Below are positions 4,102-36,955 of a stretch of 38,127 nt of DNA, in pieces. This DNA comes from a virus. Position 1 is the first letter of the stretch, and each line of letters starts with the position of its first letter. The DNA lies in the IMG/VR virus record IMGVR_UViG_3300031692_000011, positions 1-38,127 of that record. One strand, given 5' to 3'. A model generated the notes under the pieces. The model was not told where the DNA came from. It did not search any database and saw only the letters and a list, made by a program, of their open reading frames with translations. The position numbers and the translations under genes are program-made.

Positions 4102-4151
4102 TTTATTTTTTCCAATAACAGATTTTTTTTTAATTTTAAGGAGTGGCAAAA

Positions 4152-5090
4152 ATGACTAACTTTGTATCTCAACATCATTCTTTTGATATCCATTTAGCTG
4201 AAGAATTTGGAATTGAAGAAGCGATTCTTATCCACCATTTCCAACATTGGATAAGAGTAAACAGACGATTAAAAAGAAATTTTAGAGAAAATAGAACGTG
4301 GAGCTATCAAACCCAAAAAGAAATGCAAGCTCACTTTCCTTATCTAAAATTAGAAACTGTAAAATATGCTTTAGAACAATTAATCGAAAAAAAAGTTTTA
4401 ATTAGAAAAAATTTCAATAAAAATCCAATTGATAAAACTTGGTGGTATGCTTTTGTTGATGAGGATAAATTTATAAATTCAAATAATTTTTACGATACGG
4501 AAAATTCCGTGTCGACACGGAAAATTCCCCCACCTATACCAGATACTATAAACCCAGATACTAAAACCTATAATAATAAACCCAACCCAAATCCAACCAA
4601 ACAGCCTCAAAGCCCAAAGCTAAAGCAATGGGCTAACGACTTTCTTTCTTTTCTCAACAGAATCAGAGAATCGCTTGGCGTATACGCCTTAGATTCTTCG
4701 GCAATTACAAATAACTGGCATAAAGAACTACAACGTATCCGTAGCAAGATATCTTTAGATGACTACAGATCCATACTTACGCTTCTAGAGAAAGACGCCT
4801 TCTGGAGAATGGTGGTTACAAACCCCGCAAAACTGCGAAAGAATCTGGATAGCTTCCAATTAAAGCTAGCAGCGATTAAGAATAGCCCCGCAGCCATCAA
4901 GCAGCGAAAGCATGAGGAGCTAGAAGCAATTGCTACAGCGAATAGACAATGGTGGCGAGATAAAAAGCATTTGTGCCATGAAAAAGCCGATGAGTGTCAA
5001 AGTGGTTTATGGATAAATAAGCGATTACTATGTTTTTGGGATGAAGACTTTCCGAATGCTTGCAGGATTGAATTCCCCGAATTCAAATAA
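4152..5090 (+). CDS. Replication initiator / helicase-loader protein
   Basis: A 312-residue protein with the architecture of phage replication proteins. A winged-helix N-terminal domain (residues ~1-110) has EEAILIHHFQHWI, RTWSYQTQKEMQAHFP and the LETVKYALEQLIEKKVL helix plus wing ending TWWYAF. A low-complexity linker rich in Pro, Asn, Thr and Lys follows (about 118-160). The C-terminal helical domain has a late cysteine-containing segment (CHEKADECQSGLWINKRLLC). I chose ATG 4152 because AAGGAG lies eight bases before it, whereas GTG 4143 is too close. Expected role: bind the origin and load DnaB, encoded downstream. The linker DNA holds the probable origin repeats. Confidence 0.7.
   Translation: MTNFVSQHHSFDIHLAEEFGIEEAILIHHFQHWIRVNRRLKRNFRENRTWSYQTQKEMQAHFPYLKLETVKYALEQLIEKKVLIRKNFNKNPIDKTWWYAFVDEDKFINSNNFYDTENSVSTRKIPPPIPDTINPDTKTYNNKPNPNPTKQPQSPKLKQWANDFLSFLNRIRESLGVYALDSSAITNNWHKELQRIRSKISLDDYRSILTLLEKDAFWRMVVTNPAKLRKNLDSFQLKLAAIKNSPAAIKQRKHEELEAIATANRQWWRDKKHLCHEKADECQSGLWINKRLLCFWDEDFPNACRIEFPEFK
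4497..4625 (+). other. Probable replication origin inside the initiator gene
   Basis: Two identical 12-mers ACGGAAAATTCC (4497 and 4517) are spaced 20 bp apart, with the palindrome CGTGTCGACACG (4508-4519) between them. Two copies of CCAGATACTA at 4539 and 4554 follow. From 4527 to about 4620 the plus strand is almost free of G and rich in A and C. The two 12-mers are read in different frames (T-E-N-S versus T-R-K-I-P), so their identity is not explained by the protein. In lambda the origin iterons and an asymmetric A-rich tract lie in the same place, the linker region of gene O. Confidence 0.6.
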
Positions 5091-24373: not shown

Positions 24374-25330
24374 ATGTCAAATATAAATACTACAGAACAA
24401 ATTAGTGATGCTGTAGGAGTTTGGTATGGTCCGACCTTTATTGATATAGCAGTGCCTATGTTAATTGCTGATCAGTTTGGTCAAAAGGTTACCATTCCAC
24501 GTAATCGTTCCGAAAGGGCACTTTGGTCTCGTTATGAAGAGCTTCCTGAATCTACAACTCCATTAACGGAAGGTGTAGAACCGGAAGGCGAACTCGTTGA
24601 CGTTACAAGAATGGATGCTGTATTGCATCAATATGGTGATCTTGTAATCATGACTGATGTTGTTGAATTGACAGTAGAAGATCCAGTAGCTAATAAAGTG
24701 AATAGAAGACTTGCTGAACAAGCCGGTCGTTCTCTTGATACGTTAACTTTTGACGTGCTTAAAGCAACTGGTTCTATCTATAACTGCCAATACGGAGGAA
24801 ACTTAAAAACTCCTACAGAAATAACACAAGCAGACGCTGATGAAGCTGTACAAACCTTAATGGATAATGACGCCAAAATGTATACCGCTGTAATGACAGC
24901 AGGACAAGGCGTTGGTACAGCTCCTCTTGATGAGTCGTATTACTGTATGACAAATACAGCTATATATCGTGATCTTAAAGATTTACCATCTTGGGTTCCA
25001 ATTAATCAATATCCTAAACCAGAAGCTCGCCGTAAGGGAGAAAGAGGTTATACGGATAATTCTAGATGGACAATGTCATCTAAAGCGCCATTCACATTAA
25101 ATGGAGATTTAGCAGGCACATCGACAGTTTATGATTGGTATATGACCGGAATGGATTCATATGGGATTGTAGACTTAGAAGGTGGCAATATTGAAACAAT
25201 ATTTACACCACCTGGTGGTCCAGGAGATCGATTGAAACAAAAATCATCTCTTGGTTGGAAAGCTTGGCATGCTGCTAAAATTTTACAAGATCTGTGGCTC
25301 ATTCGCGGCAGATGTACATTAAGCACTTAA
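24374..25330 (+). CDS. Major capsid protein (N4-gp56 type)
   Basis: A 318-residue HK97-fold coat protein of the N4-gp56 family. Seen: an N-terminal IADQFGQKVTIPRNRSERA, then LTEGVEPEGELVDVTRMDAV and HQYGDLVIMTDVVELTVEDP (the family's strongest block), a mid-protein LAEQAGRSLDTLTFDVL, and a C-terminal strand that includes SLGWKAWHAAKIL. AAGGAGCAT precedes the ATG. Confidence 0.92.
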   Translation: MSNINTTEQISDAVGVWYGPTFIDIAVPMLIADQFGQKVTIPRNRSERALWSRYEELPESTTPLTEGVEPEGELVDVTRMDAVLHQYGDLVIMTDVVELTVEDPVANKVNRRLAEQAGRSLDTLTFDVLKATGSIYNCQYGGNLKTPTEITQADADEAVQTLMDNDAKMYTAVMTAGQGVGTAPLDESYYCMTNTAIYRDLKDLPSWVPINQYPKPEARRKGERGYTDNSRWTMSSKAPFTLNGDLAGTSTVYDWYMTGMDSYGIVDLEGGNIETIFTPPGGPGDRLKQKSSLGWKAWHAAKILQDLWLIRGRCTLST

Positions 25331-25967: not shown

Positions 25968-25997
25968 AATGAGATACTTATGAAATATTAAAAAATA

Positions 25998-26026
25998 TTG
26001 AATAGTATGACTCATCATGTTATGCT
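25998..26026 (+). promoter_or_regulatory. Promoter ending inside the hairpin
   Basis: TTGAAT (25998-26003), 17-bp spacer, TATGCT (26021-26026). The -10 is the 5' arm of the hairpin at 26021-26044, so RNA starting about 26033 would lack that arm. Confidence 0.5.
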
Positions 26027-26044
26027 CCGATAAAAAGGAGCATA
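26021..26044 (+). promoter_or_regulatory. RNA hairpin hiding the homing-endonuclease RBS
   Basis: A perfect 8-bp stem TATGCTCC/GGAGCATA (26021-26028 with 26037-26044) has an 8-base loop. The Shine-Dalgarno GGAG (26037-26040) for ATG 26047 is entirely in the 3' arm and would be blocked in transcripts reading through from the capsid genes. Confidence 0.7.
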
Positions 26045-26046
26045 GC

Positions 26047-26559
26047 ATGTTATGTAAAAAGTGTGGAATAGATAAAGAGGAAAGTAGATTTGAATTTAGA
26101 AATGATACAAAGAAATTTAGAAAAACTTGCAAGGATTGTAGAAATAAAAAATTTAATGAAGCTTATAAAGATAATAAAGAGAAAATTTGTAAAAGAAACA
26201 GAGAAACAAGAAATAGAAGCAAAGAACATTATAATGCTAAATCTAGAGAAAGATATTGGAAAAATAGAAAAGAATTATTAGGCAAAGCTAGAAAACGGAA
26301 AGGATATAAAAAAATAAGGATAAACTCTTTAGTAAAATGGAGAGAAAAGAATAAAGATAAATGTAGTGTTTATCAAAAAGTTATAAGAGCATTAAAAAGT
26401 GGAAAGTTAAAAAAAAGCGAGAAATGCCAAATGTGCAATAAAGAATGTAATACACATGGTCATCATTATGATTATTCAAAGCCATTAGATGTAATCTGGG
26501 TTTGCAGTGAATGTCATAGACTGTTACATTCAAAATATTTTAAAGAAATTATTAATTAA
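26047..26559 (+). CDS. HNH homing endonuclease, free-standing
   Basis: A 170-residue mobile endonuclease inserted between structural genes. A zinc-binding front end has MLCKKCGIDKEES and TCKDCRNKKF; a long Lys/Arg/Asn-rich linker follows. The C-terminal HNH domain has CQMCNKECNTHGHHYDYSKP and VIWVCSECHRLLH, giving the CxxC, H-G-H-H, PLxVxWxC and CxxCH elements. ATG 26047 is chosen from the spacing of AGGAG; an upstream in-frame ATG (26017) lies before the hairpin. Its Lys/Asn-rich composition differs from its neighbours. Expected role: cut related phage genomes lacking the gene, driving its own spread. Confidence 0.88.
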   Translation: MLCKKCGIDKEESRFEFRNDTKKFRKTCKDCRNKKFNEAYKDNKEKICKRNRETRNRSKEHYNAKSRERYWKNRKELLGKARKRKGYKKIRINSLVKWREKNKDKCSVYQKVIRALKSGKLKKSEKCQMCNKECNTHGHHYDYSKPLDVIWVCSECHRLLHSKYFKEIIN

Positions 26560-26568
26560 AGGAGACAT

Positions 26569-26967
26569 ATGTCAACAATGATGAAAGAAAAAAAAGCAGA
26601 AGTAAAGGCTGTGCAGGAAGAAATACCGGTTAAAGAAATAAAGTCTAAAGAACCTGCATATAAAATTGAGCAATGGGCAAAAGCTCGTTTTAATTACGTG
26701 GAAATGAGTGAGTATCCAGGCTCTATATGGAAATGTTCTCCTCAAGGAAAAAGGGAAGAATTTAAGGATGGCGAAATCTATCATCGTCCTGTAGGTTTTT
26801 TTGAGATGATGAATTCCGAATGTAGAGTACAAAAAAGAAAGTTAGTTAAACCAAATGATGAAACAATTGGTAAATATGTGAAAACGACACAATTCGCATC
26901 TCGCATTCGTTTTGATATTATTGAAGTATACGATAAAAAAATACCGATTGTTAAAAAAGAGGGATAA
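26569..26967 (+). CDS. Virion-operon protein, unknown
   Basis: A 132-residue protein with AAAGGAGACAT before the ATG. The first ~35 residues are charged and probably disordered; the rest has a compact domain with SIWKCSPQGKREEFKDGEIY and FEMMNSECRVQKRKLVKPND. Basic overall. No family recognised; between capsid and adaptor genes. Confidence 0.65.
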   Translation: MSTMMKEKKAEVKAVQEEIPVKEIKSKEPAYKIEQWAKARFNYVEMSEYPGSIWKCSPQGKREEFKDGEIYHRPVGFFEMMNSECRVQKRKLVKPNDETIGKYVKTTQFASRIRFDIIEVYDKKIPIVKKEG

Positions 26968-32486: not shown

Positions 32487-34204
32487 GTACTGAGTTTGAT
32501 TGGAGCCAATATAAAACACTTCCTTCTACTCCTACTACAAATCACCCTACTACATTTGATTGGAACCAATATGAAAATATAGAAATGCCTAAGCTTCCAA
32601 TTCAACAAACATTAGGAGAACAAGCATTAGAAATAGGAACTGAATCAGCTAAAGGATTAGCAAGAACTGGATTGAGAGGAGGAGCTGCATTGGTTGCTGC
32701 TCCATCTAAAGCTATTGGAGGTTTATTACAACTATTATCTCAGATTGGAACTGAAGGAAAGCGTGGCGAAATTAAAGGAATGGGAACAAGAATGATTAGA
32801 GCTGCGGGTAACTATTTCCAAAAAGCTGGAAAAGAAGGACAAGAACAATTAAAACAGGGAATTGAAAAATTACTTGGACAATCATATGGAAGTGCCGAAG
32901 AAGCATTAGCTCAAGGTGTAGAACGTATAGCGACTATCTATGGAAGTGGGCCATTTAAAGGAATGGTATTACCTTCAGTAGTAGGAGGTGCAGCTGGTCA
33001 AACAGCAAAAGAACTTGGATTGCCCGAATGGGCTCAACAAATTGCAGAATTTAGCGGTGTATTAGGGCCAGATTTAGTCAAAGGATTAATTAGTCTTGCT
33101 AAACAACCTCGATATGCAGAATCAGGACTTCAATTACCTTCAATAGCAGAAAAAACTGGAGAGAAACTGAGAGGATTAAAAGCTAAAGTCTTTGGAGGCA
33201 GAAAAGAACAAGTATATAGAAATGTATCTGATCAAGCTGAAAAATTGATAACTAAGATAAAACAAGAAAATCTTCCCCTTACTAAAGAAATAGAAGAAGG
33301 TATAGATGTATCTGCTAGAACTCAGAAAAATTTAGAAAATGTTCAAACTCTAGCTAATAAAATGACAAATAAAATAGAATCGAAACCTATATCTGATTAC
33401 TTAAATGAAATAGAAAATAAGATTCAATTTGGAGGAGTTCCTACAAATGAACAAGAAGAGATATTAAAATTAATAAGTAAATATAGAAATAGATTTGGTG
33501 AATTAGAAGGTGCTACTAGATTTTATACTCCATCGCAATATGTAAAACAATTCAGAAATATAAATAAAGATTTAACAAATTTATATCAGACTAAATTTGT
33601 TCATGGCGAACGATTAGATACAATGAGATTCTATGAAGGATTAAAAGATAATATTACTAAGACTTTAGAACAAGGAACTCCAGAAGCGTTTACCAATCTA
33701 TTCAAGGAAACAAATAAAGAATTTTCACAATTAAGCAGAATAGAAAGATTTAATCAAATAATGGAAAATGTAACGAGTGAAAAAGGTGTAATTGAAGCTA
33801 CAAAACTTAGAAATTATGTAAATAATCCTAAAAAAGCAAATATACTTAGAAAACAAATTGGTAAAGAAGGATTCGATAAATTACGATTAATTTCAAATGA
33901 TCTTAGTAAAGTTCAAAATAAACTTAAACTTGTTGAAGAATTAGATTTAGGATCAGCTCTTAAATCAGGACTAGCACTTAAAGTTTTAACAAGTCTAAAA
34001 ATTCCAGTACTAGGTGGTGTGCACCTTACGCAAAAAGGAACACAAATAGCACGAGGTTATATGTTAACTTCACCCCAAGGAACAAGAGATGTTTTGAATT
34101 TTTTAAGAGCTATACAATCAGGAAACAAAAAAGCTATTAGATCTTATGCATTAAGATTAGATGAAAATGCCCAAAAATATGAAGATTCTAAGAATCCCAA
34201 ATAG
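32483..34204 (+). CDS. Internal virion (ejection) protein, large
   Basis: A 573-residue protein with two copies of an FDW-[SN]-QY motif near the start (residues 5-10 and 25-30), a Gly/Ala-rich hydrophobic region (about 52-80; GLARTGLRGGAALVAAPSKA) that could insert in a membrane, then long charged helices (about 215-480). The arrangement fits a DNA-ejection protein that reaches the inner membrane. No muramidase motif seen. Confidence 0.65.
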   Translation: MSTEFDWSQYKTLPSTPTTNHPTTFDWNQYENIEMPKLPIQQTLGEQALEIGTESAKGLARTGLRGGAALVAAPSKAIGGLLQLLSQIGTEGKRGEIKGMGTRMIRAAGNYFQKAGKEGQEQLKQGIEKLLGQSYGSAEEALAQGVERIATIYGSGPFKGMVLPSVVGGAAGQTAKELGLPEWAQQIAEFSGVLGPDLVKGLISLAKQPRYAESGLQLPSIAEKTGEKLRGLKAKVFGGRKEQVYRNVSDQAEKLITKIKQENLPLTKEIEEGIDVSARTQKNLENVQTLANKMTNKIESKPISDYLNEIENKIQFGGVPTNEQEEILKLISKYRNRFGELEGATRFYTPSQYVKQFRNINKDLTNLYQTKFVHGERLDTMRFYEGLKDNITKTLEQGTPEAFTNLFKETNKEFSQLSRIERFNQIMENVTSEKGVIEATKLRNYVNNPKKANILRKQIGKEGFDKLRLISNDLSKVQNKLKLVEELDLGSALKSGLALKVLTSLKIPVLGGVHLTQKGTQIARGYMLTSPQGTRDVLNFLRAIQSGNKKAIRSYALRLDENAQKYEDSKNPK

Positions 34205-34632
34205 GGTATAAAGCTAATAAACACCAGAGAGAGCCCCAAAAACCTGTAAACATGGAAACTATCGCTACGACTAGTGTTAAAACGCACCTAATAAAAAACC
34301 CCATCTCACCCTCTTGTGAAAAGTTTTCATCATCTTAACATTCTCTTTAATTTCACATAAGTCCGAAAGATTATTTTAATTTACCCCCCTAACAAAAAAA
34401 AGTTAGCCCCCCCTAAATAGCAACTAATTTTGATGGGTTTCCATTGACAATTACCCCCTCATCAATAATTAATTTTTTAAATAGGGGGTAATATTTCCTT
34501 GCACCTAATCCAATGTTAAATTAAAAATTTAATTGTACATCGTAATGTATAACTATTCGGAAAATCCTAATAGTTTAAACGACCTATGAGTGAGGGGAAT
34601 AAACTCACTAAATTTATATTAAGGAGAAACAT
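34205..34632 (+). promoter_or_regulatory. 428-bp non-coding region rich in inverted repeats
   Basis: No convincing gene. Elements seen: C runs of six and seven around CTAAC-A8-GTTAG (34384-34413); ATTACCCCC/GGGGGTAAT (34450-34458 with 34484-34492); TTAAATT/AATTTAA (34516-34532); AACTATT/AATAGTT (34551-34575); AGTGAG/CTCACT (34589-34609). A perfect TTGACA (34444-34449) lacks a good -10; TTGCAC-N17-TAAAAA (34499-34527) is a second weak candidate. Long C/G runs stand out in this AT-rich genome. It may hold a promoter and structured leader for the fibre gene, or a packaging or replication site. Confidence 0.55.
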
Positions 34633-36906
34633 ATGGTTCAACGTAAAGCGCCTTTAACGAGTCTTATAGGCAGAAGACAAGGCATGTATTATGTAAAAAA
34701 ACAAAGAGCGCCACTATCAACAGATATTGGAGAAAAACTTGGCTGTGTATGGTTAGACATGGTTGGTAAAGCATCTTATATTTTAGAATCTAATTTTAAT
34801 GGTTCAGCACAATGGGAACAAATTGGCGGAGGTCTATACTTTCAAGAAGCCGTTCGTTCGAGTTCTACGGCAGAAGCAGTAGCTACGCAAACAGAAGGAT
34901 ATAGATATATTGCCCCAGCAGCTGGTGCAACATGGACAGCAACATATATCTATGAATGGCATGCAGGAGCATGGGTAGAAACAGCATCCGCAGAAGGTAT
35001 GGCTGTTTATGTAGATGATGACAATGAAGTGCAATTATTTGATGGAACAAACTGGAACAATCTTGTTTCTCCGGTAACCACACTAGCCGGATTATCTGAT
35101 ACTACTATTGCAGCTCCCACAGATGGAGCGGTCTTAATTTATGATACAGGAACGGCTAAGTGGTATAACAAAGCTGTAAGCGGTATTATGACTATCACAG
35201 ATGGTGGTGTAACTGCGTTTACAGGAACTCCCGTTGTAAATGCGGTAGTAGATGCGGCCGCAGCAATCGCTTACTCTAAATTAGCAGCATTAACATCTGC
35301 TAATATTTTAGTAGGTTCAGCCGGAAACGTAGCAACGGTAACGCCTGTAACAGGAGACGTAGCTATTTCCAATACTGGCCTTACAACTGTTGGAGATTTA
35401 ACCATAGCTGGAGAAGCTCAAGGGGATATCTTATATAATGATGGTTCAGGTTGGGAATCGCTAGCAGCAGGAGCAGCAGGTCTTTCGCTTCTAACAGCAG
35501 GAGCAGGTGCTAACCCATACTGGGGTGCTCCAGCGGTGGCAGCAGCTTCAGGAATAGCCAATGGTTGTACTTTAAATGATGCAGGGGCAAATGATGCAAT
35601 TTTAGCATTTACTACTCAGACAGTAGGAGCTCCGACTTTAACAGTACCAGATTTTGCTTCGGTTTCTGATACATTTGTATTTGTTACATTAGCACAAACA
35701 CTTGCTAATAAAACATTGACATCTCCGGTAGTGAATACTCCAGATATCAATGGCGGTACAGCTGACTCATTGACTAATTTCTCAATTAGATCATCTGGTG
35801 CAGCCTTTGATCTTGAGCAAGATACTGCAGAAGTTCTAACAGGAAATAAGATTATATCTTGGAATGTAGGAGATACTAATAGAAGTATTACGCTTGGAGG
35901 TAACATTGCATTAGGTGGTACATTAACTACTGCGGGTGCAATTACTCATGCAGGCGCATTTAGTATTGGCATTACCTCTCAAAATAATGGTACATTTGCT
36001 TTTGCAGATGCTGGTGCTTATGCGTTAACTTTTCCAACAGGAACAGTAACCTTAGTTAGTCAATCAACAGCAGAAACTTTAACCAACAAAACTATCACAG
36101 CTCTTAAAATTGCAACTACTGATGGTATTTTTGATGCAGGCGGCGATGAATATGTAATCTTTACAGAAAGTGCTACTCCAGTAAACTATATTGGAATTCA
36201 TAGTGCTGATACTACTGCTGCACCTGTTTTATGTGCAGAAGGGAGTGATGCGAATATTCCGTTAGCTCTTTATGGTAAAGGTACGGGCAAAGTAACTATT
36301 GAAGATGCGGCAACACCAACAAAAATGTTAAATTTTGAGTTGGTAGGTGCAACAGCTACTAAAACAATGACTATAACTTCTAGTCATACTGATGATAGAG
36401 CTTTAACATTACCCGATGCTACAGATACACTTGTAGGCAAAGCTACTACTGATACTTTAACTAATAAATCTTATGACTGTAATGGAACAGGTAACGTATT
36501 TACTAATGCTAATATGGCTGAAATGGAAAATGAAACTATTCCAGCAGCAGATGGAAACAATGTTACAATTGTAGATGGCTTGATTATTGCTAGAGTAACA
36601 AACAATGCTACTAACTTTAATATTTACAATGCCAATGCACCTTACGCATTTATTGTATGTGATGCTTGGAGTGTTGCTACAAGTGCAGATGGTGGTACAT
36701 GGAAGTTAAATAATGGAGCAGCAGGTGCCGGAACCGATATTACAAACGTAGTAACGGTTGCAGCTTCTGATAAAGACATTGATAGAATTACATCTATTGA
36801 TGATGCAGCTTATGCTATTGGTGCAGCAGGTTCATTATCTGTTGTATTAGATGGTGGTGGTGCATTAGATTGTTTGATCTTTATCAAAATAGCCAGATTA
36901 GCATAA
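34633..36906 (+). CDS. Large repeat-containing tail fibre
   Basis: A 757-residue Ala/Thr/Gly-rich protein, AAGGAGAAAC before the ATG. The N-terminus (about 1-70: LTSLIGRRQGMYYVKKQRAP) probably attaches to the virion. A later block repeats a short element with the core T-x-T-L-x-NKT (TLANKTLTSPVV; TAETLTNKTITA; TTDTLTNKSYDC), as in beta-structured phage fibres. The C-terminal ~110 residues form a beta domain ending in ALDCLIFIKIARLA. Product of the only gene between the hairpin-rich region and the terminator at 36927. Confidence 0.75.
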   Translation: MVQRKAPLTSLIGRRQGMYYVKKQRAPLSTDIGEKLGCVWLDMVGKASYILESNFNGSAQWEQIGGGLYFQEAVRSSSTAEAVATQTEGYRYIAPAAGATWTATYIYEWHAGAWVETASAEGMAVYVDDDNEVQLFDGTNWNNLVSPVTTLAGLSDTTIAAPTDGAVLIYDTGTAKWYNKAVSGIMTITDGGVTAFTGTPVVNAVVDAAAAIAYSKLAALTSANILVGSAGNVATVTPVTGDVAISNTGLTTVGDLTIAGEAQGDILYNDGSGWESLAAGAAGLSLLTAGAGANPYWGAPAVAAASGIANGCTLNDAGANDAILAFTTQTVGAPTLTVPDFASVSDTFVFVTLAQTLANKTLTSPVVNTPDINGGTADSLTNFSIRSSGAAFDLEQDTAEVLTGNKIISWNVGDTNRSITLGGNIALGGTLTTAGAITHAGAFSIGITSQNNGTFAFADAGAYALTFPTGTVTLVSQSTAETLTNKTITALKIATTDGIFDAGGDEYVIFTESATPVNYIGIHSADTTAAPVLCAEGSDANIPLALYGKGTGKVTIEDAATPTKMLNFELVGATATKTMTITSSHTDDRALTLPDATDTLVGKATTDTLTNKSYDCNGTGNVFTNANMAEMENETIPAADGNNVTIVDGLIIARVTNNATNFNIYNANAPYAFIVCDAWSVATSADGGTWKLNNGAAGAGTDITNVVTVAASDKDIDRITSIDDAAYAIGAAGSLSVVLDGGGALDCLIFIKIARLA

Positions 36907-36920
36907 TTTAATTATGCAAT

Positions 36921-36955
36921 AAAAAGCCCCGCCTTTTTAGGGCGGGGATCTTTCT
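36921..36955. terminator. Bidirectional terminator
   Basis: A 7-bp GC stem CCCCGCC/GGCGGGG (36927-36933 with 36941-36947) with loop TTTTTAG. On the minus strand it is followed by CTTTTTATT, on the plus strand by ATCTTTCTTT. It closes both the rightward fibre gene and the leftward recombination operon; the leftward direction has the better T run. Confidence 0.8.

Follow-up and report, generated by a model that had tools for sequence, protein, structure and literature searches.

A start-site hairpin and a putative internal promoter at a phage HNH endonuclease gene of the phrog_2340 family

How might an endonuclease gene be expressed when it lies behind the head genes of a phage and its Shine-Dalgarno (SD) sequence and start codon are both folded into a hairpin? 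The question arises in a 38,127-nt stretch of viral DNA (IMG/VR record IMGVR_UViG_3300031692_000011, hereafter the window), whose relevant features are collected in Table 1. A preliminary description of this locus had proposed that read-through capsid mRNA would fold and block translation, that RNA from a promoter within the hairpin would lack the blocking arm, and that the arrangement follows the timing logic of T4 homing endonuclease genes. We examined these proposals by folding, covariation and comparison with relatives, which are in part metagenomic contigs; the hairpin and the promoter are known here from sequence.

Table 1. Features around the start of the HNH endonuclease gene in the window
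Feature	Position	Strand	Basis or remark
Major head protein gene	24374-25330		adjoins 208-aa gene
Upstream gene, 208 aa	25341-25967	+	directly 3' of major head protein gene
AU-rich hairpin (second hairpin)	25969-26015	+	directly 3' of upstream gene stop codon; -35 hexamer inside
Putative promoter (-35 TTGAAT 25998-26003; TG 26018-26019; -10 TATGCT 26021-26026)	25998-26026	+	sequence, family pattern
13-bp hairpin, one G-U pair, 8-nt loop	26016-26049	+	fold, covariation, covariance-model match
Perfect 8-bp core (26021-26028/26037-26044)	26021-26044	+	seen in sequence
SD sequence AAGGAG	26035-26040	+	6 nt 5' of ATG; GGAG within 3' arm
HNH endonuclease gene, 170 aa	26047-26559	+	phrog_2340, E 7.9e-28
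Downstream gene	26569-26967	+	adjoins counterpart of 208-aa gene in relatives without HNH gene

The HNH gene and the hairpin over its start

The phrog_2340 profile match spans residues 2-164 of the protein and bears out the original reading of the gene as an HNH endonuclease. The protein consists of an N-terminal Cys4 zinc-binding motif, a long helix and a C-terminal HH...DY...C..CH...H motif, with C3, C6, C28, C31, C127, C130, H139, H140, D142, C153 and H157 invariant across 20 members. Its AlphaFold model has a pLDDT of 86. Searches of Pfam and NCBIfam gave no convincing match, and sequence and fold searches of the PDB gave none at E <= 0.001; the phage T5 SciA endonuclease was among the top fold matches, at E about 1-2. 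The window phage has a P22-like portal. Among the larger window proteins scanned no RNA polymerase gene was seen, and the transcribing enzyme is therefore likely to be that of the host. No match was returned by blastn of 24.3-28.3 kb against named phages, and no relative by a capsid alignment search of genome contigs.

The perfect 8-bp hairpin with the SD in its 3' arm, as described earlier, is present, and the true stem is longer. Its 13-bp arms (26016-26028 and 26037-26049) enclose the loop GATAAAAA at 26029-26036, and the full element, CAUGUUAUGCUCC GAUAAAAA GGAGCAUAGCAUG, covers the SD as well as the start codon (26047-26049), which in the fold lies inside the stem. Folding of 25968-26110 gave a z score of -6.5 against shuffles, and the HNH leader, at -21.0 kcal/mol, is the most stable among the window gene starts tested (next, -14.3). 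Perfect stems of at least 8 bp with at least 4 GC pairs occur once in the 38-kb window, compared with 0.65 expected from shuffles. Rfam contained no significant match for the hairpin. At the spot of the second, AU-rich hairpin, a relative lacking the HNH gene (L008) has an AU-rich hairpin as well. In read-through RNA the SD arm and the AUG are predicted to be unpaired with values of 0.00 and 0.01, compared with 0.43 and 0.90 in RNA from the predicted start. The proposed block of a read-through capsid message thus stands as far as burial of the start signals goes, although the adjoining gene encodes the 208-aa protein and not the capsid. The 5' arm also contains an in-frame ATG (26017), use of which would add 10 codons to the HNH reading frame, running through the hairpin (26017-26049); this ATG has no SD, but a ribosome initiating there would melt the stem.

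The hairpin that buries the start signals is conserved, with covariation. Across seven alignable hairpins, 6 of the 13 pairs changed on both sides, a level of covariation matched by 0-3 of 500 shuffles. Aligned cells are paired in 94.4% of cases, as against 29-45% when the arms are slid, and G-U pairs make up 9 of the 14 cells that are not Watson-Crick (binomial p 9e-5). The seven hairpins were used to build a covariance model, which scored 47.7 bits (E 9e-11) on the window, whose sequence is part of the model, and matched its own leaders plus three related ones (L161, L170 and L172). Beyond these it matched only in L026 and L013, at borderline E values (0.04-0.27) and 3' of an HNH gene, not 5'. 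Most leaders matched on both strands give the higher score on the mRNA strand, L170 and L172 being the exceptions.

Other parts of the window contain repeats of their own. Two 16-nt direct repeats at 4493-4528 (CGATACGGAAAATTCC and CGACACGGAAAATTCC, 94% identical), which also form an inverted repeat, lie inside a replication-initiator-like gene (4143-5090) and look like an iteron origin within the initiator gene. Just 3' of the last large forward gene, at 36927-36947, is a strong bidirectional terminator-like hairpin (CCCCGCC-TTTTTAG-GGCGGGG). A 19-nt inverted repeat of 79% complementarity (ATTACCCCC...GGGGGTAAT, 34450-34492) sits between a gene ending at 34204 and one starting at 34633.

Relatives with and without the gene

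At the matching site the HNH gene is absent from L004, L005, L008, L034 and L036-L039 and present in the window and L035; this presence and absence at one site among close relatives marks it, on genomic comparison, as a candidate free-standing homing endonuclease gene. The relatives without it have a GC hairpin of their own at the spot, mostly with the G-rich strand first and several with a U-run; terminator-like examples with U-runs separate the head-associated gene from the one after it in L034 (5595-5630), L038 (4654-4690) and L039 (5593-5640). In the window and in L035, the HNH cassette has apparently taken the place of such terminator-like hairpins. The latter phage, whose head protein is 78% identical, has a hairpin homologous to that of the window, from which it differs by one both-sided and two one-sided pair changes. 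A third case at the same syntenic place, L050, was found via the hairpin pattern. An HNH search blind to the hairpin led to L161-L177, nearly all directly 3' of the same type of head gene and almost all with an SD-burying hairpin, and in total at least 12 phage lineages have a related HNH gene at this head-operon spot with such a hairpin.

The clearest comparison is between L167 and L170, which are 99% identical over 2.3 kb upstream and 2.5 kb downstream of a replaced block. This block begins 17 nt past the stop codon of the upstream gene and takes in the HNH gene except for its last ~110 nt. Both alleles have an SD hairpin, with stems that differ. In L162 the resident GGGGG...CCCCC hairpin has been kept and an HNH hairpin of its own added alongside. 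The covariance model found no match in the HNH-less relatives. Since these relatives have a different hairpin, and since the stem was exchanged as part of the L167/L170 allelic swap, comparison of sequences with and without the insertion, the check recommended at the outset, indicates that the hairpin travels with the gene. L004's phage, empty at this site, has another HNH relative elsewhere (L198, IMGVR_UViG_3300005613_000175). Some relatives also have SD hairpins of 10-17 bp where the head protein gene and the gene after it begin, for example at about 728-760 and 1667-1716 in L174 and at about 739-765 in L166.

Within the phrog_2340 family at large, SD stems of at least 9 bp were found in 29 of 88 distinct leaders of the first set, compared with 20 of 264 control gene starts from the same loci (p 3e-8) and 7.3 expected from shuffles. 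Two new scans supplied held-out leaders, where the count was 29 of 103 distinct sequences. This criterion, a stem of at least 9 bp over the SD region, replaced mean SD accessibility, which over the whole family shifted only modestly (p 0.007) because many members are without a hairpin by this test, especially those following SSB genes or in GC-rich phages. The hairpin counts are conservative, as L162, L264, L315 and L325 fall under the threshold yet show SD stems. On a quick tree the distribution is patchy, with slight clustering only (40 changes compared with 45.7 when shuffled), suggesting that the hairpin has often been gained, lost or replaced. HNH relatives lacking any stem had been named as evidence that would count against the original proposal; some do lack it, including L346, the window's nearest row on this tree of long branches, and the stem is common but not universal. 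In L015 (958-992) and L176 (2467-2501) a TTTTTT run lies between the SD-burying hairpin and the ATG, with a -10 box just upstream. Judging from this arrangement, the hairpin in these two may also terminate read-through RNA.

The putative promoter in the window and across the family

The -35 and -10 boxes in the window are separated by 17 nt and predict an RNA start at ~26033, within the hairpin loop; here and below the transcription start was taken as 7 nt 3' of the -10 box, and gene starts were chosen by rule. The sequence is of the bacterial -35/-10 kind rather than like the T4 late promoter consensus. It is weak, matching 4 of 6 positions in each hexamer, under the 9-of-12 cut of a generic promoter scan. 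That scan returned 58 matches in this AT-rich DNA against 85 expected and is uninformative because of the AT content. With the TG and the -35 counted, the window promoter is equalled by 6.4% of control leaders matched for composition. Among the closest hairpins the -10 drifts (TATGCT, TAGGCT, TGGGCT) while the stem is kept. Of the TTGAAT-N17-TATGCT promoter first described, with its -10 in the 5' arm, the boxes are therefore present, but they are weak, and the nearest hairpins do not preserve the -10. On this sequence evidence we give the internal promoter about an even chance of being active in the window. Starting the RNA in silico at the predicted point raised SD-arm accessibility in all leaders tested, a gain that is expected from removal of the arm and is not independent evidence.

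The pattern across the family is stronger. In the first set, L010, L015, L017, L032, L162 and L176 have a near-consensus -10 with the predicted start within the 5' arm, and the -10 enrichment over own-sequence shuffles has a z of 3.2. In the held-out set, 10 of 29 hairpin leaders have a -10 score of at least 6, compared with 0.82 in own-sequence shuffles (z 5.8). The -10 peak is sharp, lies 21-40 nt 5' of the start codon and amounts to 0.33 per hairpin leader against 0.016 in controls, a difference of ~20-fold; the control leaders are probably often preceded by coding sequence, which may inflate this contrast but leaves the own-sequence shuffles unaffected. The strong -10s come with a -35 signal (3.55 vs 2.59 matches, z 5.8). 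The predicted starts (n=35) fall in the 5' arm in 19 cases, the loop in 8, the 3' arm in 5 and upstream in 3. Family-wide placement of a -10 for a start in the 5' arm or loop is thus, at the level of sequence, a real pattern that was reproduced in held-out loci. The idea of a promoter RNA starting in the loop, without the blocking arm, gains from this placement, while the window's own instance is weak. Members without a hairpin show a -10 peak too, if a smaller one (0.11 per gene). In part, then, the promoter does not depend on the hairpin, and it may primarily be a short-leader promoter. At a GC content of <=40%, the association of hairpin and promoter is modest, with a p of 0.017 or 0.074, depending on the threshold.

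Alternative readings, mechanism and comparison with T4

Three other readings of the locus were weighed, and the most serious is that the window phage has the hairpin lock alone, TATGCT arising only because the 5' arm pairs with the SD and start codon. The weakness of both window boxes is in keeping with this, as are the loss of the -10 in the closest relatives while covariation keeps the stem, and the fact that pairing with GGAG fixes the CT of TATGCT. It accounts less well for the concentration of -10 boxes, throughout the family and in held-out loci too, at positions from which the predicted start falls in the hairpin, or for the TG in the window and a joint score that so few controls reach; we put its probability somewhat under one half. 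The inverted repeat, which overlaps the putative promoter, could instead act at the DNA level, as an operator through which the endonuclease, or some other dimeric protein, represses that promoter, much as I-TevI autorepresses at an operator overlapping its own late promoter (PMC2988022). The arm sequences nevertheless diverge while complementarity and SD stay, and an operator would not be expected to have the SD in its 3' arm every time. The tolerated G-U pairs and the model's bias to the mRNA strand likewise favour an RNA stem, and we consider an operator improbable.

The remaining reading concerns origin, namely that the hairpin is a resident intergenic hairpin or terminator following the head genes and older than the arrival of the HNH gene. 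A strong hairpin does stand at the spot in all HNH-less relatives, several with a U-run, and from the first three of these a resident origin looked likely. It was rejected on four grounds: the resident hairpins mostly have a G-rich 5' arm and a C-rich 3' arm, the opposite of CUCC...GGAG; none is matched by the covariance model; L162 has both kinds side by side; and between L167 and L170 the HNH-type hairpin was swapped together with the gene. We now hold a resident origin to be very improbable.

We regard as probable the explanation that combines the lock with an internal promoter, in which the HNH gene would be a mobile, self-contained cassette with its own expression lock. Read-through mRNA from the head genes would fold the 13-bp hairpin and hide the ribosome-binding site and start codon, such that an abundant message should yield little endonuclease. 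A bacterial-type promoter, with its -10 in or just before the 5' arm, would start RNA in the arm or loop, and this RNA, without the blocking strand, would expose the ribosome-binding site. The likely purpose would be to uncouple a potentially harmful nuclease from a strong late operon, not a T4-style delay.

The pairing of ribosome-binding-site hairpin and promoter attributed to T4 endonuclease genes agrees with the literature: the layout has been reviewed for I-TevI, I-TevII, I-TevIII and segB of T4 and for mobE of Aeromonas phage Aeh1, and RNA from a promoter immediately upstream of I-TevI lacks the stem's 5' portion (PMC2988022, PMC3014915). As in the window, the ribosome-binding site of the I-TevI-type genes is sequestered on read-through RNA; unlike the window gene, they are intron-encoded, I-TevI is a GIY-YIG enzyme and the T4 promoter is phage-programmed. 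The window gene is a free-standing zinc-finger HNH gene with a bacterial-type -10, placed among the head genes of a phage with a P22-type portal. Closer in one respect are mobE and segB, free-standing homing endonuclease genes with a similar promoter arrangement, for which the hairpin has been shown (mobE) or implicated (segB), although their promoters are of the T4 late type and mobE is inserted in a ribonucleotide reductase gene (PMC2988022, PMC3014915). The T4 genes e and soc have the same type of lock, being late genes blocked by a hairpin on early RNA (PMC3014915), but are the phage's own genes and not mobile endonucleases. The suggestion that the window follows the same timing logic is probably wrong. 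In T4 the blocked RNA is early or middle and the in-hairpin promoter late; here a presumably late message is blocked and the promoter belongs to the bacterial housekeeping type, for which insulation or early expression would be the better fit.

Among phrog_2340 members, which include endonucleases of Vibrio phage F89 g1 (L010) and Escherichia phage Huey and ORF87 of Staphylococcus phage K, L010, L015, L017 and L032 (1.273.O) resemble the window in having an SD hairpin with an overlapping promoter. Many members, unlike the window gene, follow SSB genes or lie inside DNA polymerase genes, and many are without a hairpin by our test. In the openly available papers searched we found no hairpin control of phrog_2340 endonucleases, and none of this kind outside T4-like phages. 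We tentatively propose, at somewhat less than even probability, that the phrog_2340 family has, in phages unrelated to T4, a general module consisting of an SD-burying hairpin with a bacterial-type promoter inside it, which has evolved anew many times and can be swapped. The lock would there be reversed, silent on late mRNA and allowing low expression by host polymerase from the start of infection, and members with a U-run (L015, L176) would also terminate.

Control of homing endonucleases by a hairpin and a promoter has so far been known from T4-like phages with T4 promoters. That a separate HNH family recurrently shows this layout, with hairpins of its own and promoters of bacterial type, suggests a general way of accommodating a nuclease gene in an operon that is strongly expressed. 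The near-identical phages with swapped hairpin alleles provide a natural experiment, and the layout itself a testable rule.
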